A stretch of 64,000 bases of DNA, from the IMG/VR virus record IMGVR_UViG_3300028908_000008, positions 1 to 64,000 of that record; one strand, given 5' to 3'. The notes beneath the pieces were generated by a model. The model was not told the DNA's origin, ran no database searches, and saw nothing but the letters and a program-made list of their open reading frames with translations. This document shows, one piece after another, positions 3,356 through 49,522 of the stretch (positions within the stretch are counted from its first letter, which is position 1; every line of letters begins with the position of its first letter). The stretch is from a virus. The position numbers were made by a program, and so were the translations under genes.

Positions 3356-4981
3356 ATGAAAATTTTTAAAAATGAAACTAAAATGCTATTGAAACAAATA
3401 AGCAAATTTACAAGTAATATTGAAAAAAAAGAAGATAAAACGCTCCTAAGCGGCACGGAGCTTGAGGTTATAGCAAACAACACACTTAATATCTCAAAAA
3501 ACGGTCTAACGATATCGTATTTTAACCATGAAGTTAAAATATATAAAAGTTTCAAGAATAATCATTATAGCAGTTTAGGTGATGCGACAATCACTATTAA
3601 ATTAACATTTAAAGAATTGAAGGAAATATTGAGCGATAATTTTGAAGTGATTTTAAATAAAGATAGGGATAGTATGATTATAGATACGCCCCGTAAATCA
3701 TGGCAGATAGAGAGGGTACATTTAAGTTTAAGTGTAAATAGTTTGGTCGATGCAAGTAAGAAAAAATATGATATAGGGAATTTTGATATCAATAAATTGA
3801 CAATTTCGGCTATAGCTACTAACCATCCAAAACATGAGCTAAACGGCTTATTATTCGATTTAGAAAATAATTGTTTAGTGTCTACTAATACTAAACAATT
3901 AGTAAAACAAAAAATTAAAAGTGACTCTAATCAAAAATTCATTATTCCTAAAAAGATGGTTTTTGAAACTATGCGGAATATAGCTTTATATGACGATGAT
4001 ATTATAAGTTTTGATAATGAAGATGTTCATTATCAAAGTAGATTAATTAGAGGTAGTTTCCCTAATTATCAAAGGATTGTACCGAATTATAATAGTGATA
4101 GGGGCATAAGTTTCAATCATGAGGATATTAATAAACTAAAACTAAAGAATGAATCGTATGCTATAAAAATAAACGATCGTAAAATATCTTTTATAGAGGA
4201 TATAGAAAAAATAACCTATCCAAATGAAATAAATAGCATGGAGTCAAAATTAAATATAGAGTGTAATTATACTGGCAATGATTCTATAATTTTGGGGCTT
4301 GATGCTACTTTTTTAAAATACGGTATTAAAGATGCTAAAATTTGGATAAATGGAAACAATACACCGTTAATTATATTTAACGATAATATTGAACATATTA
4401 TCATGCCACTTATCCTAAAACATTCAGAATCGTTAAATTACGAGAAAAACATGACCCAAATTAGTCATGACTGGACATGGAATAAGGAGGTAATTAAAAA
4501 AACACTTAAGAGAGTTAATTATAAAAAGCTATATGAAAATAGTATACAAGAGATTGAACTCCTAAAAAATGAGATTGATGCACTAAAAAAAGAGGTTGAA
4601 TCATGGGAAGATAAATTTAAAGAGTGTAATAAAAACAAGTCTAATAACTTTTTTGAATTATTAGATGAAACTTTAAATAAAGAGGTAGATCAAGAGGTAG
4701 ATCATGACCTAAAGGAAGATCAAGAGGAAGATCATGACATAAAGGTAGATCATGACCTAAAGGAAGATCATGACCTAAAGGTAGATCATGACCTAAAGGA
4801 AGATCAAGAGGAAGATCATGACATAAAGGTAGATCATGACCTAAAGGTAGATCATGACCTAAAGGTAGATCATGACCTAAAGGAAGATCAAGAGGAAGAT
4901 CATGACATAAAGGTAGATCATGACCTAAAGGAAGATCAAGAGGAAGATCATGACCTAAAGGTAGATCATGACCCGCCATAA
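3356..4981 (+). CDS. DnaN-like DNA sliding clamp with acidic repeat tail
   Basis: Residues 1-360 resemble the bacterial beta clamp in length and landmarks: ELNGLLFDLE at 161-170, KFIIPKKMVFE near 204 and IRGSFPNYQRIVP at 231-243 match the LNG..E, IPRK and G.FPDYRRVIP segments of DnaN. The core ends with a PLIIFNDNIEHIIMPLI strand pair like the clamp C-terminus. A clamp tethers DNA polymerase to DNA, and the phage also encodes a PolB. Unusually, a coiled coil (about 385-420) and a ~100-residue hydrophilic tail of DHDLK/EDQEE units follow, so the protein is 541 rather than ~366 residues. The tail could bind partners or metal; that is inference. Confidence 0.75.
   Translation: MKIFKNETKMLLKQISKFTSNIEKKEDKTLLSGTELEVIANNTLNISKNGLTISYFNHEVKIYKSFKNNHYSSLGDATITIKLTFKELKEILSDNFEVILNKDRDSMIIDTPRKSWQIERVHLSLSVNSLVDASKKKYDIGNFDINKLTISAIATNHPKHELNGLLFDLENNCLVSTNTKQLVKQKIKSDSNQKFIIPKKMVFETMRNIALYDDDIISFDNEDVHYQSRLIRGSFPNYQRIVPNYNSDRGISFNHEDINKLKLKNESYAIKINDRKISFIEDIEKITYPNEINSMESKLNIECNYTGNDSIILGLDATFLKYGIKDAKIWINGNNTPLIIFNDNIEHIIMPLILKHSESLNYEKNMTQISHDWTWNKEVIKKTLKRVNYKKLYENSIQEIELLKNEIDALKKEVESWEDKFKECNKNKSNNFFELLDETLNKEVDQEVDHDLKEDQEEDHDIKVDHDLKEDHDLKVDHDLKEDQEEDHDIKVDHDLKVDHDLKVDHDLKEDQEEDHDIKVDHDLKEDQEEDHDLKVDHDPP
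4681..4979 (+). repeat. GATC-bearing minisatellite encoding the clamp tail
   Basis: In-frame units of 18 bases (GATCATGACCTAAAGGTA, giving DHDLKV) and 12 bases (GATCAAGAGGAA, giving DQEE) alternate. I count 18 GATC sites spaced 12 or 18 bases apart. The regular pattern leaves the opposite strand open as a shadow frame. Copy number is likely unstable. Confidence 0.9.
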
Positions 4982-5531: not shown

Positions 5532-5828
5532 TTAGCTTAAAGATGCTATTAAAAGTTCTTTAGAGCTATAACAATCCTCTATCTTATACATGTTAGCTTG
5601 ATTAGTTCCCATGTAGCGATCAGTGTCCCCGATTAAATGAGTCACCTCGTTATCTTGATTGATAGATATATCAATTCTCTTAATCTCAAATTGTTTAAAC
5701 CTCGGTTTAACATGTGCTATATCGTTAATATTACTTCTAGTTTTATTGCAACAATTAACAACATGTACTATATCACCTATCTTATAAACTAAATCAAATA
5801 ATAAATCGTTATCGGCGTTTAATGGCAT
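5532..5828 (-). CDS. Hypothetical protein
   Basis: This 98-residue soluble protein contains a small beta-barrel-like segment (VYKIGDIVHVVNCCNK) and a Cys-Cys pair. The start at 5828 has AAGGACT upstream. It precedes the lipoprotein gene by 9 bases on the same strand, so the two probably form one operon. The function is unknown. Confidence 0.65.
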   Translation of the reverse strand: MPLNADNDLLFDLVYKIGDIVHVVNCCNKTRSNINDIAHVKPRFKQFEIKRIDISINQDNEVTHLIGDTDRYMGTNQANMYKIEDCYSSKELLIASLS

Positions 5829-5870
5829 TATGAGTCCTTATATTTTTTTCTTAATATAGCACACTTTAAT

Positions 5871-6138
5871 TTTTGCCTTAATGGGAAGGTCAGTCCAATT
5901 TTGCCTTAATGGGAAGGTCAGTCCAATTTTGCCTTAATGAGAAGGCTAGTCCAATTTTGCCTTAATGGGAAGGTCAGTCCAATTTTGCCTTAATGAGAAG
6001 GCTAGTCCAATTTTGCCTTAATGGGAAGGTCAGTCCAATTTTTGCCTTAATGGGAAGGTCAGTCCAATTTTTGCCTTAATGGGAAGGTCAGTCCAATTTT
6101 TGCCTTAATGGGAAGGTCAGTCCAATTTTTGCCTTAAT
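5871..6138. repeat. Tandem 28-29-bp direct repeat array (candidate iterons)
   Basis: GCCTTAAT recurs at 5875, 5903, 5931, 5959, 5987, 6015, 6044, 6073, 6102 and 6131: nine full units and a partial tenth. The consensus ends AATGGGAAGGTCAGTCCAA. Two units carry the linked change GAGAAGGCTAG for GGGAAGGTCAG, and spacing moves from 28 to 29 bp in the second half through one extra T. There are no spacers, so it is not CRISPR. The site lies before the zinc-module and PrimPol genes, as expected for iterons. Confidence 0.9.
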
Positions 6139-6401: not shown

Positions 6402-6908
6402 GGTTAACTTTTCTTTAAGATTGGAAAGATATACTCACTCTTGCAAGTCAATATTTTTCATGATTTTTTGATTTAAAAAGTTGATTTAGTAGTTTGAAGT
6501 TTGTCACAAAAAAAACTACTAAATCTTTTGCTTTGCTTGACAAACAAAATTTGTACAAGAGCTTGTATTTTAATATGAATTAATCTTTTAGTGATTAATT
6601 ATTGCTTGTATTGGTCGTATAAACACTACTAGATCAAACTACATGCAATTTTCAAAAATTAACTCCTTAAGCCCTTTTTACATGCAATTTTTCAAAATTA
6701 AGCCCTTAAGCCCCTTTTTTTTTACATGGAATTTTTCAAAATTAAGCCCTTAAGCCCCTTTTTTTTTACATGGAATTTTTCAAAATTAAGCCCTTAAGCC
6801 CCTCTTGTCATGCAATTTCCAAAATTAAACCCCTTAAGCCCTCCTATTTAAGTACAGATTAACCTATAATTTAGTATACTTAAGCCCTAAAACGAAAAAG
6901 GATAGATA
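6402..6908. other. Noncoding region between zinc-protein genes
   Basis: No gene is supported here. The first 240 bases are AT-rich with short inverted segments (AGTAGTTT / AAACTACT around 6489-6520). The rest holds five direct repeats, listed separately. The last 50 bases probably contain the promoter for the 6909 gene (TATAAT at 6865-6870). Confidence 0.6.
6640..6845. repeat. Five-copy 39-44-bp direct repeat with TTAAG core
   Basis: Copies beginning ACATG or TCATG start near 6640, 6680, 6724, 6768 and 6808. Each reads roughly CATGCAATTTTTCAAAATT, then AAGCCCTTAAGCCCC and a T tract. The inner GCCCTTAAGCCC is partly palindromic. Copies 3 and 4 are nearly identical, while the outer ones are more diverged, as in an array growing from the middle. 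It is a candidate binding site or origin element. Confidence 0.85.
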
Positions 6909-8189
6909 ATGAGATTATGTGAAAATTGTGGAACTAATATAGATAAGCACCATGCACTTAGAAAAGTGTGTGATGAATGTCAAGGTGAAAAGAAAAGAGA
7001 ATTAGCACGACGCTACTGGGCTAAACTAAAAGAGAATCAAAAACCCCTTTATTGCAAGGAGTGTAATACTTTACTTCCAAAAGATGTAAAGCGTAATACT
7101 CAACGATGTAGCAACTGTAAAACAAAGAGGATAAACGAGCTATCGAGAGAAGCCTATCACAGAAGGATTAAAGCCCAAAGAGTTAAACCCCGATATTGTA
7201 TTGATTGTAAAGTAGAATTAGCAAAAGATATGCACTTCAACGCTATTAGATGTGAAGATTGTAGAATTGCAAAACGAAGAGAGTTAGCAAAAGACTTACG
7301 ATTAATAAAACGAGACAACAAGGTCTCACCACAAAAATATAGAGAATGTAGAGGTGAAAATTGCACTGAAAGTGTAGAGGTAAATAAAAACAGATTTTAT
7401 TGTGATGAATGTAGACGAAAAAGAGCTAATCAATTAAGTAAAGAATTCTACGAAAGACATGTTAAATCAAAACAACCCCAGTATTTATATTGTGTAGATT
7501 GCAAGACACAATTACCAAAAGGTACTCATGTGACTACGCTTAGATGCTATGAGTGTAAAATGGAAAAAAGAAGATTAACTTCTCGTGAATACCATGAGAA
7601 AACTAAGGAAACAAAACAAACTAGAACATGTCAAAGTGAAGGCTGTACAAAACAATTCCTAGTGAATAGAAATAGAATTTATTGTGAAGAGTGTGCAATA
7701 AAAGAAAAGAAAAGAAAGAACAAAATATACGCTCAAAGGAGTAAGGAATTATACAAGGAAAACAGACGATTAAGAGTCTTGCAAGAGATTGAAGAAGGTA
7801 ATAATTTTTGCAAATGTGGTACAAAAATACACCCACGAAAAAATAGATGTGCAGAGTGTGCAGGTCAAACTAAAGAAGTTATTAAAAATAGAAAAGTTCC
7901 TGCATATACAAATAAAAGCACCATGCCCAAAAAACCAACTTGCAAGATTTGTCCAAGAACAAATTTATTTAGTGATGGATTATGCAAACCGTGCTACTCC
8001 AAGCAAATAGAAAAAGATCAAAGCGTTTGGAATGATAGATTTTTGTTACACAAATATAAGAAAATAGCAGATAAAAGCAATCTAACTGTATCTCAAATAG
8101 AGCGTTTTATCAAAGATGGAAAGTTAACAATCCCGAACAATCAAAAAGATGTAAATAGTTTTTTTATCAAACTCTCTCAGCTCCAGTGA
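6909..8189 (+). CDS. Eight-module zinc-ribbon array protein
   Basis: This 426-residue, very basic protein contains eight successive Cys4 modules beginning near residues 4, 49, 97, 147, 195, 241, 301 and 347. Each has a first Cys pair (CKEC, CIDC, CVDC or the longer CRGENC), 13-17 residues, a second pair (CDEC, CSNC, CEDC, CYEC) and a basic helix of the KKRELARRYW type. The last ~50 residues form a non-zinc helical domain. Repeated zinc modules with basic helices suggest binding of repetitive DNA or RNA. It lies 64 bases after one repeat array and upstream of the PrimPol-helicase. I do not know a described family with this architecture. Confidence 0.6.
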   Translation: MRLCENCGTNIDKHHALRKVCDECQGEKKRELARRYWAKLKENQKPLYCKECNTLLPKDVKRNTQRCSNCKTKRINELSREAYHRRIKAQRVKPRYCIDCKVELAKDMHFNAIRCEDCRIAKRRELAKDLRLIKRDNKVSPQKYRECRGENCTESVEVNKNRFYCDECRRKRANQLSKEFYERHVKSKQPQYLYCVDCKTQLPKGTHVTTLRCYECKMEKRRLTSREYHEKTKETKQTRTCQSEGCTKQFLVNRNRIYCEECAIKEKKRKNKIYAQRSKELYKENRRLRVLQEIEEGNNFCKCGTKIHPRKNRCAECAGQTKEVIKNRKVPAYTNKSTMPKKPTCKICPRTNLFSDGLCKPCYSKQIEKDQSVWNDRFLLHKYKKIADKSNLTVSQIERFIKDGKLTIPNNQKDVNSFFIKLSQLQ

Positions 8190-8228: not shown

Positions 8229-8260
8229 TATTAACTAGGAAAAAAATTAAGGATTTGGGA

Positions 8261-10777
8261 TTGAAAAAGAAACTTTACAAACAATATACTAATCTAAATT
8301 TTACCATAATAGAAATTGGTAAAAATAAAAACCCTCTAGCGAAGAGAGATTTAAACGCTAAATCAATAAAATTTGATAAAAATAAAATTTATGGGGCTGT
8401 TATACCTGATGGTATTTTTATTATAGATATTGATACAAAAAATGACAAGGTTGGCTTAGAGAGTTTTGAAAGGTTATGTGAAGATATAGAAAACCTTCAA
8501 GATATTAGACCTACAATTAAAACAGGTAGCGGTGGTTTACACTACTATTTTAAAACTAATCTACATTTTAGAACTACAAATAAAGAATATCCCGATATAG
8601 ACTTCTTAACATCTAAAGCAGATAAAAGAGTCCACAATCCTTTCGTAGTAGCAGGTGGACAAAGTTTAGAAAATGGGGATTATACGGTCTTAAATGAGGG
8701 TAAATTATACATTAATGATAATTACGATGAACAATTTATGCAAGTATTAGAACAACAAAAAGAGCCTTCTAATGAAGATATTTTAGAAGATGATACCATT
8801 TCATTTAACGATATAAAAAAGAACTCTCATGATAAGTTATCTCTTAAAAAAGTTTATCAGTTATTACAATTAGTAGATGGTAGCTCATACGAAAATTGGA
8901 TGAAAATATGTGCTATTTTAAAAAGAGAAAATAACTCTAAAGAAATGAGAAATTTATTTATAGATTTCTCAAAAAATCAAGATGGGTTTGTTAGCGAAAT
9001 AGATGTAATTACTAAATGGGATAATATCGGAAATTATCATGGTGATAGTGCAGGTATTGGTAGCTTACTAGAAGAAGCCTTAACCAACAAAACTAATCAT
9101 ATTATTGATGATTTAGAGCGATTAGAAGATGATATTGAACTAGAAGATATTAAAAAAACTTTAACTGATATGCAGGAATACCCGTATATTACCAAGAGTG
9201 AACTAGTAGCTAAAATTAGTCATAAAGTTAACATATTAGTTAAAGAAAATAACATACCGTTAGGGCTTAAAGATGTTAGGGAATTTGTAGTTAATTGTAC
9301 GAAAAAACCTCGACATGTTGCAAAAGAAGAGTATCTCAAGGAAGAAGAAGAGCGAATCGAAGCGGGTGAAGCTCCACGAGATGCTTTTCTAAATGAAATT
9401 GTCTATATAGACAAAGAAAAGCAAAGTAAGTATGGCTATAAATATAAAACCTATAATGATATAAGTTTAGAGGCACTTTTATATAAAGAATTCCAAATGC
9501 TAAATGACGGTTGGAAAGCAAACAATGGCTTTGGAGATAAAGAAAAAGTTACGCCAAAAAATTGCGTAATTAAAAATTTAATCCCTCTTGCCGATGTATC
9601 AGCGTATAATAGTGCTACAAGCGAGAGAATCTTCAAGAACATGCAGGGTAATGATACTTTTAACTTATTTAATCCTCAAACTGTACCTCAAGAGGCAGAT
9701 AGTATCAGCAAAGAAGGTTTAGAACTTATAAAATTCCTTATTGAACACTATAAAAGACTATACAGTGAAGATGAAGTTAAAACGATGCTAGATTATTGGG
9801 CTTACATTGCTCAAAATCCTTCTAAAAGGGTTTCGTGGGTAATGGTAATGCAAGGAAGTCATGGAATTGGTAAAACGCTTATTTGTGAACTTGTAGCAAC
9901 TCATGTCGTAGGAAGAGCAAACAGTACAATAGTTGACCCTAATCAAGTGACATCTAATTTTAACGATTGGGCATCAGGTAGTAGTTTTTGTGTTATGGAC
10001 GAGATAAGAGTGGAAGGACAAAGCAGATATTCAGTACTAAACAAACTTAAACCTTTGATTACCAATCAGTATATTTCTTTAAATAGAAAAGGTCAAGTAG
10101 GTGTAACAGTTATAAACAATATCACTTATGTAATTGTAACAAATCATAAAGACGCTATACCGTCATCAGCAACTCATAACGATTCAAGAAGATGGTATCG
10201 AATGTTCTCTAAAATAGAATCCGATGAGGACTATAAAAAAATGGTTAGAGATTTAGGATATAAAAGTAATAGTGAATATATCAAGCCGATTATTAAACTG
10301 TTAAACTCTAAAGCGTATGGATCAGAATTTAAAAAGTGGCTACTTGAAAGAGATGTATCAAAATTTAATCCTAATGAGAGACCTGCAACAATCGAAGCAG
10401 ATAAAATCAGCGTGGAGTTAGAAATTGAAAAGCACTCTATGAATGTTTCTGTAATTAACTTTATTCAAAAAGCTTATAGCGATGATAGTGTTATTAGTTT
10501 AAAAGAGTTGTACGATCGTATAAAAGGAAGTAGTGTTTTAGATAAAGCTAATCCTATTGATTTTGATGATGATGAAACCCCTCGTTATGCCGATATGAGC
10601 AAGATATTAAATCGGATTGGATATTTAAAGTCTAAGAGGATTAGTAGGAAATTTGGGAATAAAAGATATCAATTTCAGATTTATACAAAAGATGTGCATT
10701 CAAGCAACCTAGAAGTTAAGATTAAAAAGTATGTTAAGAAGTATATTAGACCTTTGTTTGAGAGTGAGAGAGATTAA
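8261..10777 (+). CDS. PrimPol / SF3-type helicase replication protein
   Basis: The N-terminal ~170 residues match the bifunctional primase-polymerase domain: IIDIDTKN carries the metal-binding acidic pair, GSGGLHYYF the nucleotide-binding His, and NPFVVAGGQ follows. A PriCT_2-like helical region follows near 200-280. The C-terminal half is a D5/VirE-like (DUF5906) superfamily 3 helicase: Walker A GSHGIGKT near 530, Walker B FCVMDEI, sensor VIVTNHKDAI and arginine finger DSRRWYRM. It should synthesise primers and unwind DNA. The start chosen is TTG 8261, because AAGGA then lies exactly 7 bases upstream as in its neighbours; a TTG at 8255 would overlap that site. The size is 838 residues. Confidence 0.9.
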   Translation: MKKKLYKQYTNLNFTIIEIGKNKNPLAKRDLNAKSIKFDKNKIYGAVIPDGIFIIDIDTKNDKVGLESFERLCEDIENLQDIRPTIKTGSGGLHYYFKTNLHFRTTNKEYPDIDFLTSKADKRVHNPFVVAGGQSLENGDYTVLNEGKLYINDNYDEQFMQVLEQQKEPSNEDILEDDTISFNDIKKNSHDKLSLKKVYQLLQLVDGSSYENWMKICAILKRENNSKEMRNLFIDFSKNQDGFVSEIDVITKWDNIGNYHGDSAGIGSLLEEALTNKTNHIIDDLERLEDDIELEDIKKTLTDMQEYPYITKSELVAKISHKVNILVKENNIPLGLKDVREFVVNCTKKPRHVAKEEYLKEEEERIEAGEAPRDAFLNEIVYIDKEKQSKYGYKYKTYNDISLEALLYKEFQMLNDGWKANNGFGDKEKVTPKNCVIKNLIPLADVSAYNSATSERIFKNMQGNDTFNLFNPQTVPQEADSISKEGLELIKFLIEHYKRLYSEDEVKTMLDYWAYIAQNPSKRVSWVMVMQGSHGIGKTLICELVATHVVGRANSTIVDPNQVTSNFNDWASGSSFCVMDEIRVEGQSRYSVLNKLKPLITNQYISLNRKGQVGVTVINNITYVIVTNHKDAIPSSATHNDSRRWYRMFSKIESDEDYKKMVRDLGYKSNSEYIKPIIKLLNSKAYGSEFKKWLLERDVSKFNPNERPATIEADKISVELEIEKHSMNVSVINFIQKAYSDDSVISLKELYDRIKGSSVLDKANPIDFDDDETPRYADMSKILNRIGYLKSKRISRKFGNKRYQFQIYTKDVHSSNLEVKIKKYVKKYIRPLFESERD

Positions 10778-10792
10778 ACTCTCTCTTTTTTT
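10766..10792 (+). terminator. Rho-independent terminator after PrimPol gene
   Basis: GAGAGAG (10766-10772) and CTCTCTC (10779-10785) form a stem around a loop holding the stop codon, followed by seven Ts. It closes the plus-strand replication block at the convergence with the minus-strand genes. Confidence 0.8.
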
Positions 10793-10991
10793 AATCCAGT
10801 TGGAGCATAATCTCTAAAATCTCATCAGCATCAAGATCATTAAAAACCAAAATATCGCTTAGTTCTTGTGATTCTAAAACCCACACGCTTTCAAAACTGA
10901 TTTCACCATTAAAATCTTCATAGGCGATTGCCTCACCATCTATAATCTCAATGTGAATTAATTCACCATCTAAATCTACTAATTTTAACAT
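10791..10991 (-). CDS. Hypothetical very acidic small protein
   Basis: This 66-residue protein is almost entirely acidic and hydrophobic (no Lys after residue 3, about 18 Asp/Glu). Strong acidity at this size is seen in DNA mimics and inhibitor proteins of phages, but no family is recognised. A clear AAAGGA site precedes ATG 10991. It ends within the PrimPol terminator. Confidence 0.65.
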   Translation of the reverse strand: MLKLVDLDGELIHIEIIDGEAIAYEDFNGEISFESVWVLESQELSDILVFNDLDADEILEIMLQLD

Positions 10992-11119
10992 CTTTTTTTT
11001 CCTTTTTTAAGTTATTCAATTTAAGCCGTTTTAATAGCCGACCTATATCAATGTATTACTAAAGGGTAGATCGTTCAAATTTACCCCACTCTATGGCTTT
11101 TAAAGCTCATATTTTAGTA

Positions 11120-11512
11120 TTAATCATTACCTCCAAATTCTAACTCTGTAATTTTAACCTTGGTATTCTTAAGTTCTATTTCTACATCTCTCTCGATTGA
11201 GCGAATGAATCTAGTTAGTTTTTTCATTGATTTTTCTAAACTGTTTATGTCTGTTAATTCATCGACACTTAATTTTAAATTGTAGCATTTAAACCTCTTG
11301 TCAAAATAGACTTTAACTGTGAGCTTGTTAGTATCTTGATACAGCACTACACCTAAGCCTTTAGGTAATTGCAAACTTGCACTTACTAAAGATTTTAAAT
11401 TAAACTCTATATCTCTGCCCTCACATCTTGCAAAAACCTCATGTTCCATTTCTTCTATTTTTGAATCAACCTCAACTGTTGTAGTTTTTACACTTAATTC
11501 TATCTTTCTCAT
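11120..11512 (-). CDS. Hypothetical protein
   Basis: This 130-residue protein has alternating strands, then two amphipathic helices (VDELTDINSLEKSMKKL, TRFIRSIERDVEIEL) and a final strand. No domain is recognised. It starts after AAGGATAG and has the minus-strand leader at 11538 upstream. It lies at the edge of the TTACTCACCC array and may be the first gene transcribed out of it. Confidence 0.65.
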   Translation of the reverse strand: MRKIELSVKTTTVEVDSKIEEMEHEVFARCEGRDIEFNLKSLVSASLQLPKGLGVVLYQDTNKLTVKVYFDKRFKCYNLKLSVDELTDINSLEKSMKKLTRFIRSIERDVEIELKNTKVKITELEFGGND

Positions 11513-11537
11513 GACTATCTATCCTTTTATTATATTT

Positions 11538-11595
11538 CAACCCTATTTGGTTGTTAAAAGAGAGTATACACGATAATATCTTTGATATTCCTTAA
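11538..11595 (-). promoter_or_regulatory. Minus-strand leader hairpin and promoter, copy 1
   Basis: On the minus strand a TATACT-like -10 precedes the hairpin arms CAACC and GGTTG (plus-strand 11538-11553), then TTGAAATATAATAAAAGGAT and the start. Closely similar leaders precede the genes starting at 12992, 15199 and 29614, so they form a co-regulated set. This copy is the most diverged. Confidence 0.5.
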
Positions 11596-11625
11596 ATATA
11601 TCCTATTAAGAGTGGCAAAAATGCG

Positions 11626-12351
11626 TTACTCAGGGTCAAAGCCCTAAATTTGGGGCTTTAAATCAAAATTACTCAGGCAAATGAGTAAAAAAAGGGCTTA
11701 GGGTGAGTAATTTGAGCGTTAGGGTGAGTAATCTAAAAAGTGGCAAATCCCTAAATTTAGGGCTTTAAATGAAAAATTACTCACCCTGACAAAATTACTC
11801 ACCCCTCTCAGAGTTTTTATATATTATTTTTTATTTTTTTTTTCATGTCTTTTATAAAAAAAATAAAATCGCATGTAAAACCTTGGCTAAGGGTGAGTAA
11901 TCTATATAGGGTGAGTAATTTGATCGTTAAAAGGCTTAATTTAGGGATTTGCTCATCTTCAAAAAAAATTATTTAGGGTGAGTAATATTTAAGAGAGGGT
12001 GAGTAATTTGCTCTTCAAATGCCCATATCTTGGTACTTAACTCCACTTTTACAAGATTACTCACCCTGCCTGAGTAACTTTCCCGTTTCTTAAGCTTTTT
12101 TATTAATCATTAATATTTATGCTAAAAATTTAACACTTTGATAGAAGTCCGATAATACGGTACTTTAAGGAGCGAATTACTCACCCTAAAACTTATTGCT
12201 CACCCACTTTAGAGTTAAGACTCTCTTTATAATTGATTAAATTTACGATTTTTTCTTAATCGTTACTCACCCTACCTAATTACTCACCCACTTTTATAGT
12301 GTTTAAGATTCACTAAAGAAAAAGTTACTCACCCTAGCGTGTTACTCACCC
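11626..12351. repeat. TTACTCACCC motif array (candidate origin or partition site)
   Basis: In about 1.2 kb without genes (11513-12698) the decamer TTACTCACCC or its complement occurs 14 times exactly: complement form at 11701, 11722, 11891, 11909, 11976, 11997; direct form at 11777, 11795, 12057, 12177, 12263, 12280, 12325, 12342. Variants lie at 11626, 11669 and 12196. Most sites come as same-direction pairs 17-21 bp apart, about two helical turns; the pair at 12057/12071 is inverted. A long A/T-only tract lies inside at 11818-11838, and 12263-12380 is a 62-bp duplication. This pattern is typical of iteron, partition or regulator arrays. Confidence 0.9.
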
Positions 12352-12553
12352 ACTTTTATAGTGTTTAAGATTCACTAAAGGCGAGTTTGACAAGGTTGAG
12401 ATATAGTTTTGGTATCTGCTTCGGATAGTCATTGCAAGTGAGTGGGATTTTTGAGTTTTTGTGTAGATATAGTCTTATAAGACTATATCTAAATAGTTAT
12501 GCGTTTGTCAAGTTTTTATCAAAAATGGCGTTAAAATGGCGGTTTTCGGGGTG

Positions 12554-12597
12554 TTTTTGAGTAGTTTTTGAGTAGTTTTTGAGTAGTTTTTGAGTAG
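12554..12597. repeat. Four tandem 11-bp TTTTTGAGTAG units
   Basis: Units start at 12554, 12565, 12576 and 12587 with no variation. The complement CTACTCAAAAA shares the TACTCA core with the neighbouring decamer array, so it may be an extension of the same protein-binding region. The 11-bp period would place each unit on the same DNA face. Confidence 0.85.
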
Positions 12598-12663
12598 TTG
12601 AGGTTTACAGATTAATTCAATTCTGAGTCGATCTGTAGTTTAGTTTAGTTTTTTTTATCAAAA

Positions 12664-12690
12664 AAGAATATGGAAATTCCCCATATTCTA
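12664..12690 (-). terminator. Rho-independent terminator for the 12699 gene
   Basis: On the minus strand AGAATATGG and CCATATTCT form a stem followed by six Ts (the plus-strand A-run at 12659-12665). It lies right after the stop codon at 12699 and isolates the array from transcription of the methyltransferase block. Confidence 0.8.
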
Positions 12691-12698
12691 AACCTCAA

Positions 12699-12992
12699 CT
12701 ACCCAAGCACAACCGTGATTAATCCCCGTTCACTCTCATTCCATGAGCTGTTAGGTGTATCCCAGTGTTGGATATCCAAACTACACTCAAGTACAAAAGC
12801 TCCCTCAAATTTCTCAACTACTTTGAATGGTGACGCTATTACACCATAGATATCATGCTCACCTGCATAAACTCTGTTAAATTCATCCCCTGCAAGTTCG
12901 TGAATCATGTTGAAAAAATAATGATCGTAATCTATTACCTCATCTACATGTTTCATATTAGCTCCATTAATTTTAATTGTTACTTCTCTCAT
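12699..12992 (-). CDS. Hypothetical protein
   Basis: This 97-residue acidic protein begins with a beta strand (MREVTIKINGAN) and has a helix-rich middle. The C-terminal segment (AFVLECSLDIQHWDTPNSSW) is aromatic. No family is recognised. It is the last gene of the minus-strand block and has its own leader/promoter (13018) and terminator (12664), so it is an independent unit. Confidence 0.65.
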   Translation of the reverse strand: MREVTIKINGANMKHVDEVIDYDHYFFNMIHELAGDEFNRVYAGEHDIYGVIASPFKVVEKFEGAFVLECSLDIQHWDTPNSSWNESERGLITVVLG

Positions 12993-13017
12993 TTTCTAAT
13001 CCTTATTTTTTTAATTT

Positions 13018-13090
13018 CAACCTCTTTTGGTTGTTGAAAAGAGTATATAAGAGAATAGCTTAAAAGAATATTAAATATAAGTATATAAGG
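13018..13090 (-). promoter_or_regulatory. Minus-strand leader hairpin and promoter, copy 2
   Basis: The plus-strand sequence CAACCTCTTTTGGTTG (13018-13033) is a 5-bp-arm hairpin in the mRNA leader. Upstream on the minus strand lies a TATATAC -10-like box and a conserved TATTCTTTTAAG block, shared almost base for base with the leader at 15225. Confidence 0.55.
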
Positions 13091-13132
13091 GTATATTTTT
13101 AAGTAGTTTAGCAAGAAGGCTGTTAAGCCCTC

Positions 13133-13306
13133 TTAGTTTGATTTAATGGAAAGAGCTTTGAGGACTCTTTTAATCTCATCTTCGTTTAAATCTGTTTTAG
13201 CTTTCAAATAGCTAAAGAAATTAATATATGAACCATCAAAACAGTAATCTTCAAATAGTGCTTCACAATACACTATTAAATCGCCAATGTAATCAGTATT
13301 ATTCAT
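13133..13306 (-). CDS. Hypothetical small protein (57 aa)
   Basis: ATG 13306 is preferred to a TTG at 13333 because it starts inside the end of the upstream gene with a weak GGTGA site, suggesting coupled translation. The protein ends in an acidic helix (KTDLNEDEIKRVLKALSIK) that looks like a helix-hairpin, but no family is recognised. Confidence 0.5.
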   Translation of the reverse strand: MNNTDYIGDLIVYCEALFEDYCFDGSYINFFSYLKAKTDLNEDEIKRVLKALSIKSN

Positions 13307-15224: not shown

Positions 15225-15290
15225 CAACCTCTTTTGGTTGATGAAAAGAGTATATACAATAATACCTTAAAAGAATATTAAATATAAGAT
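15225..15290 (-). promoter_or_regulatory. Minus-strand leader hairpin and promoter, copy 3
   Basis: CAACCTCTTTTGGTTG (15225-15240) is followed on the minus strand's upstream side by a TGTATATAC -10-like box and AGGTATTATT. The region up to the divergent gene at 15360 is only 160 bp, so promoters for both directions are packed here. Confidence 0.55.
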
Positions 15291-29728: not shown

Positions 29729-30736
29729 CTACAATCTAGGCATATCAACATTGTCAAAATTCGGTATATCATCGTTAACATACTCCATCTCTCTGATAAC
29801 CTCCACGCCAAATAATTCCGACTTTTCAATCTTTGCAAGAAACAAACGATTGTCAAATATTCTATTTTTTGTGCATTTAATAAATCTAATATTTTCATCA
29901 AACATAACCGCCCCCAACTCATCAACTTTGGGTTTATCATTAGCATCAAGTAGTTTTGCTTTTAAAATAAACAAAATCATGTCTGAATCATATTCGGTAT
30001 CATTCCCTCCCTTTAAATACAACTCGTTATTTTTTTCATTCTCCTTACTCATCTGATTTATCATATAGATATTAATATCCAACACGCTTGTTAGTTCTTT
30101 TAGTACATTACTAATCTTTGAATCTTTTTCAAAAGAACTAGCATTACTAACATTAATTTTCATGTTCGAGTCTATTACGAAATGTTTCACTCCACTTGCG
30201 TTTAGATATTTAATCTCGTTTGCAATCTCGGATAACTCTCTACTAGAAGTGTAATAGAGTACATTGTTCTCATTTGCATTAAAAGCATCAATTTTATCAA
30301 TCACTTGCATATCACTCATCTCGAAATTCATCCAGCTTACTTTTTGATTTAATGAGAAGTTACTTAACATTTTTAGAAGTATTGTTGTCTTTCCTGCTCC
30401 TTTTGCTCCTGCTATTTGAATCAAGTTACCAAGAGGAAAGCCTCCAATATCTCCCCTCTTGTGAGCGTCTTTTCCTACAAGTTCCCTATCGAGCGATTTA
30501 ATCCCCGTTTCAATAGGTACAGGTCTTTTCATTTGATTTACTCTCTCTCTAACAACAGAAAGAGGGATAGATTTGAATCTATTTATATTCTCATTCACAG
30601 AATCAATAATCTGAAGTCTTAATTGTAAAAATTCTTTTTCAATCTTACTTCCAACTTCATAATTCTCATTTGCGTATTCTCTTTTAAATTGTACTTCTAA
30701 CTTTTTTGCTTCTTTTACTTTTTCACTAAATGTCAT
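29729..30736 (-). CDS. DnaB-like helicase, RecA-fold domain only
   Basis: This 335-residue protein: after a helical N-terminus (1-75), GIKSLDREL and a Walker A loop GAKGAGKTT (110-118), then WMNFEMSD, equivalent to the DnaB SLEMS motif with catalytic Glu140. HFVID follows (Walker B, Asp190), then INQMSKENEKNNELYLKGG like the DnaB QLSR..E segment. A replicative helicase of this class forms a hexamer and unwinds DNA at the fork. The usual DnaB N-terminal domain is missing here and appears as the separate gene 30817 just upstream. Confidence 0.8.
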   Translation of the reverse strand: MTFSEKVKEAKKLEVQFKREYANENYEVGSKIEKEFLQLRLQIIDSVNENINRFKSIPLSVVRERVNQMKRPVPIETGIKSLDRELVGKDAHKRGDIGGFPLGNLIQIAGAKGAGKTTILLKMLSNFSLNQKVSWMNFEMSDMQVIDKIDAFNANENNVLYYTSSRELSEIANEIKYLNASGVKHFVIDSNMKINVSNASSFEKDSKISNVLKELTSVLDINIYMINQMSKENEKNNELYLKGGNDTEYDSDMILFILKAKLLDANDKPKVDELGAVMFDENIRFIKCTKNRIFDNRLFLAKIEKSELFGVEVIREMEYVNDDIPNFDNVDMPRL

Positions 30737-30769
30737 TTCTTAATCCTTATTTTAATTCTTTTGTGTCAA

Positions 30770-30800
30770 AAATGCACTCTAATTGATTTTAGGTGCATTT
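30770..30800 (-). promoter_or_regulatory. 8-bp-arm hairpin between the two helicase genes
   Basis: AAATGCAC (30770-30777) and GTGCATTT (30793-30800) flank 15 bases in the 80-bp gap. It could set the ratio of the two helicase subunits by slowing transcription or protecting the downstream message. Confidence 0.4.
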
Positions 30801-30816
30801 ACTTGATTGAACTCTT

Positions 30817-31137
30817 TTAGCAGTTAAAACCGCTTGTGAGCAACTTTCGTCTCTTTTCTAATTTCAAATAATCGTAATAAATTTTCATCACTTTTGGAGT
30901 GAGTGGATTTTGAACTATAATATTCAAATAAACACTTTCTAAAACATGACCTTCTAAACTCTCTTCTAGTTTCAAATTTAAAAGAGACATTGGCAAGTCT
31001 TTTGCTATGAACTCATTTATTTTAATTACAAAGCTTTTAAACTCTCTCTCAAAATAATACTCATCTAATAAATCTAACTCTCCAGTTTCGTCAAACAGAT
31101 AAGCACTTATAATCGCTCTTTGAATGTTTCTTAGCAT
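30817..31137 (-). CDS. Stand-alone DnaB N-terminal-domain-like protein
   Basis: ATG 31137 overlaps the stop of the initiator gene (TAATG), so it is translationally coupled. The 106 residues follow the helix pattern of the DnaB N-terminal domain: IQRAIISAYLFDE (for EA..AVLG.LLLD), DEYYFEREFKSFVIKINEF (for DFY...H..IF..I), then KIYYDYLKLEKRRKLL at the end. This domain builds the hexamer collar and contacts primase. As a separate polypeptide it would form a split helicase with the 29729 product. The similarity is by pattern, not strong identity. Confidence 0.55.
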   Translation of the reverse strand: MLRNIQRAIISAYLFDETGELDLLDEYYFEREFKSFVIKINEFIAKDLPMSLLNLKLEESLEGHVLESVYLNIIVQNPLTPKVMKIYYDYLKLEKRRKLLTSGFNC

Positions 31138-31892
31138 TATGAGCAACTTAATACATATTTGTTTTCAACTTTTGGAACAGCGGGGGATATATTCTTAGAA
31201 TGAAACTTATTAAAATCTTTCATGTAATTTATAAATGATTTTGCATAATCACCTTTTTCTAATTGATGAGTAATATATGATTCTTTTAAAAGCTGTTTAT
31301 TGGTGATAGTATTAAATACTTCTTCCCCTATAAGCTTTACTTTAGATGGTATGTTAACTAAGCTACTTAGTTCGTTAATGAATTTAATAAACTCATCACT
31401 ATTCTTTTTTTGTTCATCTCTTTTTTGCTGTTTATTATTTGTGTTTATATTTGTGTTTATATTTGAACCTATTAATGATGGTTGTTTTTCTGACGATTGA
31501 TAGTTATTAATATCACCCTTGATAGTTATTTTTCTAACTATCGACAATTTAGACATCTCACTATCCGTAAAAAGGTATTTTGCTATAAAATCATCTTCAA
31601 TAGTATACCACTTTGTTTTATTCCATTTTGTTTTATTTAAGTCTGTTCTACTAGATAAAATATTATCATTTTCTAGTTCTCTAACTACTCTTTTTATTGT
31701 ATTTAATTTCATATAGGGAAACAACTCTAAAAGTGCATCATAAGAATTATATGTATACACTTTACCATCATGAATATTTGAATTGTTAGCCAGATTCTTT
31801 GTAATCCAATATGCAAAATTATCTAAAATAATAGCTTTTTCAATAGATTGTAAGTGTGTAGCAATTTCTACACTAAACGAGTGCTTCTTCAT
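31137..31892 (-). CDS. Winged-helix replication initiator / replisome organiser
   Basis: This 251-residue protein has an N-terminal winged helix typical of phage replisome organisers: TYNSYDALLELFPYMKLNTI, then KRVVRELENDNIL and a wing ending KWYTIEDDF. A polar linker with a short NINTNINTN repeat (about 147-153) leads to a C-terminal helical region that may contact the helicase. It is coupled to the two helicase genes, as expected for an initiator/loader operon. The DNA target is unknown. Confidence 0.7.
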   Translation of the reverse strand: MKKHSFSVEIATHLQSIEKAIILDNFAYWITKNLANNSNIHDGKVYTYNSYDALLELFPYMKLNTIKRVVRELENDNILSSRTDLNKTKWNKTKWYTIEDDFIAKYLFTDSEMSKLSIVRKITIKGDINNYQSSEKQPSLIGSNINTNINTNNKQQKRDEQKKNSDEFIKFINELSSLVNIPSKVKLIGEEVFNTITNKQLLKESYITHQLEKGDYAKSFINYMKDFNKFHSKNISPAVPKVENKYVLSCS

Positions 31893-47426: not shown

Positions 47427-47470
47427 CACCCTCCACACACTCCCACAAAAAATAAAATCAAGGATTGAAA

Positions 47471-49522
47471 ATGTTTGAAAAGTCCGATGTATCATTTGAT
47501 ATCGAAATGTATCAAAATTACTTCTTAGTAGGTTTTCAAGATGTAGTTACTAAAAACTATAAGCAGTTTGAAGTAAAAAAATCTTCAAAAGCACTAACTA
47601 AAAAACAGATAAGTGAAATAAAAAACATTATTAGCAAAAATAGATTAATAGGTTTTAATTGCATAAAATATGATATACCGATATTACTACTCGCTTTAGA
47701 GGGTAGAGATGTTAAATATCTCTATAACGCTAGTACGCTTATTATCAAAGAGAATTTTAGTATATATAAAACTTCTCAAATGTATGACTTAGATCGAGAG
47801 TTAAAGCAAGTGAATCAAGTAGATTTATCTACAATCGACATTGCAAGAGGGGCGTTTATAAGCCTTAAACAATATGGAGCAAGGATTAATGCTCCTACTA
47901 TCCAAGATTTACCTATAAAATGGGATTCAAAACTCTCTAAAGAGGACATGAAAGAGATAAAAACATATAATCTAAATGATTTAGACTTAACTACTCAATT
48001 ATATGAGTATGGGAAAGCAAATATAGAACTAAGGGAGTTTTTATCGAAAAAATATGAAGTGAATCTAACAAGTTCACAAGGTGCAAAAATTGCAGAAACT
48101 ATTATTAGTAGTGAATTTGCAAAAAGAGGCAAGTATCTGAAGCGGTCGGAATTAGAAGCAGGGGAAGAGATTAGATATAAAGCTCCTAAACATATAAAGT
48201 TTAGAGATAAATCCCTAAAACAACTATTGAAGAACTTTAAAAATACACCCCTGATAATAAATGAATCGGGAAATATAATTAAACCTGATTTTTTAAAAGA
48301 CCCTATAACAGTGAACAAAACCTCTTATACTGTAGGACTAGGTGGATTACACGCTATTATTAAAAATAAAGGAATAGTTCCGAAAAAAGATGAGGTTCTA
48401 AATCAGCCCGATGTTGGGAGTTATTATCCAAGTATGATACTAGCTTATGGCTTTAAAGCTAAGGGCATGGGAGAACTTTTCGATAAGATTTATAGAGGTT
48501 TGGTTGCAGATAGGTTTAAATGGAAAGTGTTAGATTCCAAACTAAAACACCTCAAAAATGATGATTGGAAAACTGCTATGTTAAACAATAACGGTTTGAA
48601 ACTAGTGCTAAATGCACTTTTTGGTACTTATGGAAATAAATGGTTTAAAACTTATGCTCCTGATTTGTTAATTCAAATAACTATTACTGGTCAGCTTAAT
48701 TTGTTAATGCTTATTGAATGGTTAGAAGATGCAGGGATAAAAGTAAAAAGTGCTAATACCGATTCAGTTTTAATACTTCACAAGAAAAAAGATTCTAAAA
48801 AAGCTAAAAAAATACTAAAGAAATGGGAGAAGGTTACTTCTATGAGTTTAGAAGATGATTATATTGATGCCTTTTTTGCAAGAGATATAAATTCTTATAT
48901 GTACACTAAAAAGGGTGGCTATGATGGTATAGCATACTTCAAAAAATTCAAAGATGTATCCAAAAATCTTGAATACCCAATAGTATATAAGGCTATAGGT
49001 GATTTTATATCCAAAGATATCCCAATAGAAGAGACTATCGGTGAATGTAACGATATAACAGAGTTTGTATCCACTAGAAAAAGCACTACTGGAGCGACTT
49101 ACAAAGGTAACTTAATAGGTAAAGCTTTAAGATTCTATTATTGCGATGATGATGATGCACTATTTAACATTATAACTGATGAGAAAATAGAAAACTACAA
49201 TGAACGATATAGTATTTATGAAGAAAAATTAAAAATCTATAATGATGAAGTTTCTAAATGGGAAGAAGCTCTATTAAAATGGAAAGAAACTAAAGAGGGT
49301 AAAAGACCTCTTAAGCCTAAAAAAATATATCCTCCAACAAAACCAAATGAAACAAAAGTATCAAAATCAGACTTTGCTTATCCATGTTTGAAATTACCTC
49401 ATAATATCCCTGAAAATTTAGATAGAGAATTTTATGTAAAACTAGCATATAAGCATATTAAAGAGATTGGATGGACTAAAAAACTACAAAAGAGGATCAT
49501 TAAAAATGCTCAAAAAAAGTAA
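47471..49522 (+). CDS. Family B DNA polymerase with proofreading domain
   Basis: ATG 47471 follows AAGGATTGAAA, giving 683 residues. The exonuclease motifs are intact: SFDIE (Asp10, Glu12), GFNCIKYD near 63 and YNLNDLDLT near 167. Polymerase motifs follow in order: DVGSYYPSM (about 314), KLVLNALFGTYGNK (about 377) and NTDSVLI (about 429). It copies the phage genome and can proofread. It occupies the place that a family A polymerase often takes in DUF2800-DUF2815 cassettes. The last ~100 residues are helical and may be a thumb or partner site. The gene overlaps the helicase gene by 17 bases. Confidence 0.88.
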   Translation: MFEKSDVSFDIEMYQNYFLVGFQDVVTKNYKQFEVKKSSKALTKKQISEIKNIISKNRLIGFNCIKYDIPILLLALEGRDVKYLYNASTLIIKENFSIYKTSQMYDLDRELKQVNQVDLSTIDIARGAFISLKQYGARINAPTIQDLPIKWDSKLSKEDMKEIKTYNLNDLDLTTQLYEYGKANIELREFLSKKYEVNLTSSQGAKIAETIISSEFAKRGKYLKRSELEAGEEIRYKAPKHIKFRDKSLKQLLKNFKNTPLIINESGNIIKPDFLKDPITVNKTSYTVGLGGLHAIIKNKGIVPKKDEVLNQPDVGSYYPSMILAYGFKAKGMGELFDKIYRGLVADRFKWKVLDSKLKHLKNDDWKTAMLNNNGLKLVLNALFGTYGNKWFKTYAPDLLIQITITGQLNLLMLIEWLEDAGIKVKSANTDSVLILHKKKDSKKAKKILKKWEKVTSMSLEDDYIDAFFARDINSYMYTKKGGYDGIAYFKKFKDVSKNLEYPIVYKAIGDFISKDIPIEETIGECNDITEFVSTRKSTTGATYKGNLIGKALRFYYCDDDDALFNIITDEKIENYNERYSIYEEKLKIYNDEVSKWEEALLKWKETKEGKRPLKPKKIYPPTKPNETKVSKSDFAYPCLKLPHNIPENLDREFYVKLAYKHIKEIGWTKKLQKRIIKNAQKK

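Follow-up and report, generated by a model that had tools for sequence, protein, structure and literature searches.

We propose that a dense array of short repeats lying downstream of a primase-helicase gene in a tailed phage of about 69 kb is probably the replication origin of this phage, or at least the cis-acting region bound by its initiator, with that initiator being a primase-helicase able to load itself. The stretch of DNA analyzed, here called the window, comprises the first 64,000 nucleotides of the IMG/VR record IMGVR_UViG_3300028908_000008. We favor the origin reading because the repeated decamers are confined to the array, the array neighbors a primase-helicase gene, and arrays recur downstream of homologous genes; because the repeated words follow the identity of the C-terminus of the protein, the layout recurs, and a dyad coincides with an A/T run; and because the P4 crr and the origins of SaPI/SCCmec elements and of pRN1 hold an equivalent position.

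Searching both strands for the exact decamer TTACTCACCC returned 14 copies, eight on the plus and six on the minus strand, all within 11701-12351, and a copy with one mismatch, TTGCTCACCC at 12196, brings the iterons to 15 over 650 bp. No exact copy was found elsewhere in the whole 69,263-base phage record, for which an order-1 model predicts 0.06 exact copies; in shuffled sequence, TTACTCACCC with up to one mismatch occurred 2.25 times on average and eight times at most. The recount thus confirmed what the initial annotation had reported, namely fourteen exact decamers mostly in same-direction pairs 17-21 bp apart, in both orientations and around an A/T-only tract, and its estimate that none would be expected by chance held as well; a frequent occurrence of the decamer elsewhere in the genome, which it had named as grounds for abandoning the idea, was not seen.

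Seven same-direction pairs, with start-to-start distances of 17-21 bp, make up most of the array. The first pair, on the minus strand, occupies 11701-11731 (starts at 11701 and 11722, spacing 21 bp), and is followed by a plus-strand pair that faces the A/T tract (11777-11804; starts at 11777 and 11795, 18 bp) and by its mirror image on the minus strand (11891-11918; starts at 11891 and 11909, 18 bp). A fourth pair, also on the minus strand, lies at 11976-12006 (starts at 11976 and 11997, 21 bp), and at 12057-12077 a single plus-strand iteron (12057) is accompanied by an inverted core, TGAGTAA, at 12071 on the minus strand. The remaining pairs are all on the plus strand: the fifth, whose second copy is the TTGCTCACCC variant, spans 12177-12205 (starts at 12177 and 12196, 19 bp), while the sixth and seventh (starts at 12263/12280 and 12325/12342, 17 bp each) lie at the right end of the array within a duplicated 57-bp unit (12262-12380), the copies of which are 93% alike and repeat with a 62-bp period. 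Core-only TTACTCA variants precede the array at 11626 (+), 11669 (+) and 11682 (-), within 11626-11688, and four 11-bp TTTTTGAGTAG units, which carry the TACTCA core of the iterons and might possibly be part of the same site, are found at 12553-12599 on the minus strand. The consensus of the aligned iterons is ATTACTCACCC(T/A). No complete ORF of at least 60 aa is present in 11513-12698, and no Rfam family matched within 10700-13300.

The center of the array is symmetrical. An A/T-only run of 30 bp (11814-11843), the longest in the window, lies between the two facing iteron pairs, and belongs to an A/T-rich tract at 11814-11869 (pure A/T at 11814-11843 and 11850-11869) which we propose as the unwinding element. 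Both inner pairs, those starting at 11777/11795 (+) and 11891/11909 (-), are exact mirror images of each other about position 11847, which is also the center of an imperfect dyad of about 210 bp (11743-11952) that holds the two pairs and the A/T tract, and is our candidate for the origin core. In an ungapped comparison the arms of this dyad were complementary at 73 of 105 bp, the best value in the window, compared to 58 for the runner-up, located in a coding repeat; the strongest dyad of the window hence coincides with its longest A/T run. Folding of the region predicted a single long hairpin of 216 nt (z -11.2). A comparable hairpin was unsupported in the homologous loci that were folded, where the best z values were about -1.6 to -8 and often off the iterons, and the near-palindrome of about 210 bp is without match in the homologues tested.

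The putative initiator is an 840-aa primase-polymerase/D5-type helicase encoded at 8255-10777 on the plus strand, and the array lies 924-1574 bp past its stop codon, i.e. about 0.9 kb downstream. Between the two are a pair of small minus-strand genes (10791-11512; 66 and 130 aa), for whose products no family match was found in Pfam or PHROGs. The 840-aa protein consists of an AEP-like N-terminus, a PriCT-2 domain, a DUF5906 helicase and a predicted C-terminal winged helix. Pfam returned DUF5906 (9.7e-20) and also PriCT_2, and PHROGs returned phrog_1156, a DNA primase, across most of the length (1.1e-41). A profile of the protein and its homologues identified the NrS-1 helicase (6k9c, E 8e-24) and, weakly, the NrS-1 primase (6a9w, 3e-4); in a Foldseek search with the predicted structure the closest neighbor was the C-terminal region of the NrS-1 protein (2e-15), followed by large viral primase-helicases and SaPI5 PriRep1 (7pds, 8e-8). 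The part that we propose to bind the iterons, residues 714-810 (10394-10684, plus strand), has a pLDDT of about 70-85 over most of its length in the AF2 model, in which the last 125 residues or so follow the H-E-H-H-E-E order of a winged helix. Much of the VIA-align output for this domain consists of winged-helix domains (best Z 7.4), a fold that is common; Foldseek with the domain model gave no match below E 0.001, and a PDB sequence search for the C-terminus no convincing one. The predicted structure is thus suggestive of a winged helix.

Evidence that the position of the array is no peculiarity of this phage comes from the homologues of the 840-aa protein, which are many but all distant (less than 60% identical), and which are found in the Casjensviridae (Chi-like phages) and in other phage groups. 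In the first four loci inspected, clusters of short repeats with differing words were seen at or just past the primase stop. The survey encompassed 56 loci, of which 18 belong to named phages and the other 38 come from IMG/VR, and 29 were left, window included, once those whose primases shared 70% identity or more, or whose flanks were too short, had been removed; profile scans for homologues were seeded with narrower alignments, as a 14-protein alignment was too divergent. The strongest 7-10-mer cluster fell between -100 and +1000 of the primase stop in 18 of these 29 loci, compared to 3.4 expected (p 1.2e-10) under a null that places clusters uniformly along the locus, intergenic and coding DNA together. 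No excess was seen in the control regions, with 2 of 29 upstream of the gene, 0 of 29 inside it and 2 of 29 between +1000 and +2100, and the same pipeline recovered the P4 crr, our positive control, from the annotated P4 record. Against our reading, the strongest cluster is elsewhere than downstream of the primase in roughly one in three of these loci. The window itself is outside the 18, with a coding repeat narrowly beating its array in score, and these 18 loci are therefore independent of it. Another point against our reading is that the array here, starting 0.9 kb past the stop and with two genes between, is farther from the primase gene than in most homologues.

The iteron words of the homologues, which include AGGTCCGAAT, GGGCGCAA, TGAGACCA, ACTTAGGG, AACTTGTAAT, GGTTACAA, AGGTAACAG and ACCTGTAACC, are shared by nine of ten locus pairs in which the C-termini of the primase-helicases are more than 80% identical, and by only one of 356 pairs in which this identity is below 40%. 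Such tracking of the word with C-terminal identity is what one would predict were the word recognized by the protein. Same-direction spacings in these loci are mostly 9-12 or 15-22 bp, and a gap of 90-120 bp was A/T-richer than its surroundings in 16 of 17 loci and had inverted flanks in 14 of 17. The preference for this gap length is modest (14 of 21, compared to 8.8 expected, p 0.015) and was spotted before being tested. As a separate observation, Edwardsiella phage PEi21 carries 12 copies of ACCTGCGCG at locus positions 5689-6020, mostly at multiples of 15 bp and some 0.7-1.0 kb downstream of the stop codon of the primase; this cluster overlaps annotated genes, and instead of an origin it could represent a coding repeat.

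It also counts against our reading that no close relative of the phage, which could show whether this exact array is conserved, was found when its primase was searched in viral and genome contigs, its terminase in viral contigs and the array DNA in the phage collection. The decamer-pair pattern occurred at two unrelated loci in viral contigs, each with one local pair or a short tandem run, and at 46 loci in genome contigs, mostly 16S rRNA genes. Most of these genome-contig matches are explained by the natural occurrence of GGGTGAGTAA, a conserved 16S rRNA word that some phyla carry twice, about 20 bp apart; the others were short repeats near which no replication gene was recognized. In these viral and genome contigs, therefore, the decamer was not found as an origin word common to phages beyond the present one.

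While the analysis establishes the array and its symmetry, the identity of the genes, a C-terminus predicted to resemble a winged helix, and the recurrence of such arrays behind homologous genes, the course of initiation, from binding and melting to the loading of rings, priming and its directionality, is what we infer from them. The winged-helix C-terminus of the 840-aa protein would bind the iteron ATTACTCACCCT, and oligomers would nucleate on the paired sites, whose spacing is close to two turns of the helix. The mirror-image inner pairs could then bring two helicase rings, head to head, to either side of the A/T tract at 11814-11869, which would melt and allow the rings to load themselves, after which the primase domain would lay the first strands before the phage polymerase, the clamp and helper proteins take over. 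Genes for a polymerase (47465-49522) and for a DnaN-like sliding clamp (3356-4981) are in fact encoded by the phage. More tentatively, and with odds that we place somewhat short of even, tailed phages (Casjensviridae, several other groups and the present phage) might have in their primase-polymerase/DUF5906 helicases a single broad class of self-loading initiators, of which every member reads its own fast-diverging iteron in a common layout 3' of its gene, with pairs facing each other across an A/T-rich gap of about 100 bp; in the present phage these elements would sit in a near-palindrome that unites the iteron type of P4 and SaPI with the stem-loop type of pRN1.

Origins beside such helicases are already known, and what the variant described here adds is the near-palindrome of about 210 bp. 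In the open-access literature, with subscription papers mostly outside its reach, we found no described origin for these tailed phages, Chi-like phages included. A testable origin can now be proposed for this group, together with a rule for finding origins from sequence, which is to search the DNA 3' of the primase-helicase gene for a repeat word of the phage's own. These loci also provide natural protein-iteron pairs to study how initiators and their sites diverge together.

The present locus has a D5/SF3-like helicase, short repeats 3' of its gene and an A/T-rich element between iteron groups, as D5/SF3-type iteron origins do. The Rep/PriRep proteins of SaPIs and Cch2 of SCCmec are D5-family helicases with C-terminal double-strand DNA binding, and SaPI5 PriRep1 structurally matches the 840-aa protein; the iterons that SaPI Rep and Cch2 read with their C-terminal domain lie immediately 3' of the helicase gene (PMC7581432). 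These elements, however, are satellites or islands with fewer iterons (three for Cch2), whereas the present one is a tailed phage of about 69 kb. ORF904 of pRN1 combines an archaeo-eukaryotic primase, an SF3 helicase and a winged helix and, as here, a large hairpin-forming sequence is found 3' of its gene. The pRN1 origin is a stem-loop without iterons (PMC4234260), unlike the present site with its 15 iterons and hairpin-capable dyad, and our results bear on the proposal by the same authors that proteins with primase, SF3-helicase and winged-helix domains use stem-loops, not iterons (PMC4234260). As for the NrS-1 primase-polymerase, the best structural and profile match to the helicase part of the 840-aa protein, its priming sites are 5'-GTGA-3' and 5'-TTTGGTTA-3' (PMC8718748). 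GTGA is part of each iteron when this is read as GGGTGAGTAA, and it is possible that the iteron has a dual role as binding and priming site. Of its 8-nt site, the NrS-1 genome is reported to contain two copies and no more, and an array is not described there (PMC7102993).

The comparison with P4 is what gives weight to an alternative that we consider unlikely but worth stating, in which the array would be an auxiliary or copy-control site akin to crr, bound by the primase-helicase, and synthesis would start elsewhere, for instance near the repeats at 6640-6841. P4 alpha is likewise a multifunctional primase-helicase, and its 8-mer repeats, which occur in either orientation, are spaced 9-18 bp. 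The alpha gene is followed immediately on its 3' side by crr, where the annotated ori type 1 repeats are spaced 9, 43, 18 and 14 bp, while some 4.5 kb separate crr from the annotated ori. The repeats at 6640-6841 are a noncoding tandem array in which a 44-bp unit recurs 4.8 times; they precede the primase gene and a gene for a protein with multiple Cys4 modules, and have the words AAAGGGCTTA and GCATGTAAAA in common with the iteron region. The decamer, however, is absent from them, and the array has its own A/T tract and dyad. The main ori of P4 is a distant one. Ten of the 12 letters of ATTACTCACCCT agree with the P4 site ATTGTTCACCCT, and a P4 matrix run on the window placed three array sites in the top 25, a modest enrichment over column-shuffled matrices (at most one). 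We nevertheless rejected an assignment to the P4 replicons: the P4 alpha primase is of the Toprim type (PMC4234260), whereas the N-terminus of the present protein matches the AEP-type NrS-1 primase, hhalign aligned the helicase domain alone and weakly (probability 72), and no sequence link between the two C-termini was found. A second noncoding tandem array, of a 28-bp unit (TTTTGCCTTAATGGGAAGGTCAGTCCAA, about 9.4 copies), lies at 5871-6138 upstream of a small ORF; the array of iterons, which the initial annotation had called the strongest noncoding signal, is real but with these two is not the only repeat signal of the window.

It is less probable still that the iterons are read by another protein, either the O/DnaD-like one (31137-31892) or a 426-aa protein with repeated Cys4 (zinc-ribbon-like) modules (6909-8189), which would recruit the DnaB-like helicase. 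DnaB-like and O/DnaD-like genes (29729-31892) do coexist with the primase-helicase gene, the phage may have two initiation routes, and that these proteins could serve another origin counts against our reading; the Cys4 gene, moreover, lies just upstream of the primase gene. On the other hand, array position follows the primase-helicase gene across many phages, searches of Pfam, PHROGs and the phage collection gave no match to the Cys4 protein, and the O-like gene and its surroundings (30.5-33.0 kb) showed no clear iteron cluster, scoring 5.1 at best compared to 47.8 for the array, so that an origin of the lambda O type was also rejected.

We give little credence to a regulatory array through which a repressor or activator would control the promoter of the minus-strand gene at 11512-11120 or convergent early operons: a promoter-like TTAACA-17-TATAAT does precede that gene (11557-11529) and Rha-like regulators are encoded, but an array of 15 sites that extends for 650 bp about an A/T dyad goes beyond an ordinary operator, an inverted-repeat element near 11540 is found at other genes without decamers, and the recurrence of arrays downstream of primase genes would be left unexplained. 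A centromere-like partition site or a DNA-packaging site is highly improbable, for although centromeres are typically repeat arrays and the record has an 18-bp terminal repeat, neither ParA nor ParB was found among the proteins scanned, a subset of the ORFs, and the likely terminase and portal genes are located away from the array, within the final 9 kb of the record. Among the roles first suggested for the array, then, an origin is well supported by the neighboring genes and homologous loci, the scanned proteins yielded no ParA or ParB that would speak for a centromere, and nothing favored a master regulatory region.

Cumulative GC skew peaks at 10.8 kb with a sign opposite to that usual for an origin; it tracks gene direction, and we rejected it as origin evidence. 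The inverted repeat CAACC-N6-GGTTG stands before several phage genes (window 11538-11553, 13018-13033 and 15225-15240; record 64498-64513) and is probably a common promoter or operator element. The 18-bp direct terminal repeat, AATTTTGCAATCCCCATG, is at positions 1-18 of the window and 69246-69263 of the record, and marks either a circular contig or the core of an attachment site. Lastly, the clamp gene ends in a long 3' coding repeat that gives its product a D-H-D-L-K-rich tail.
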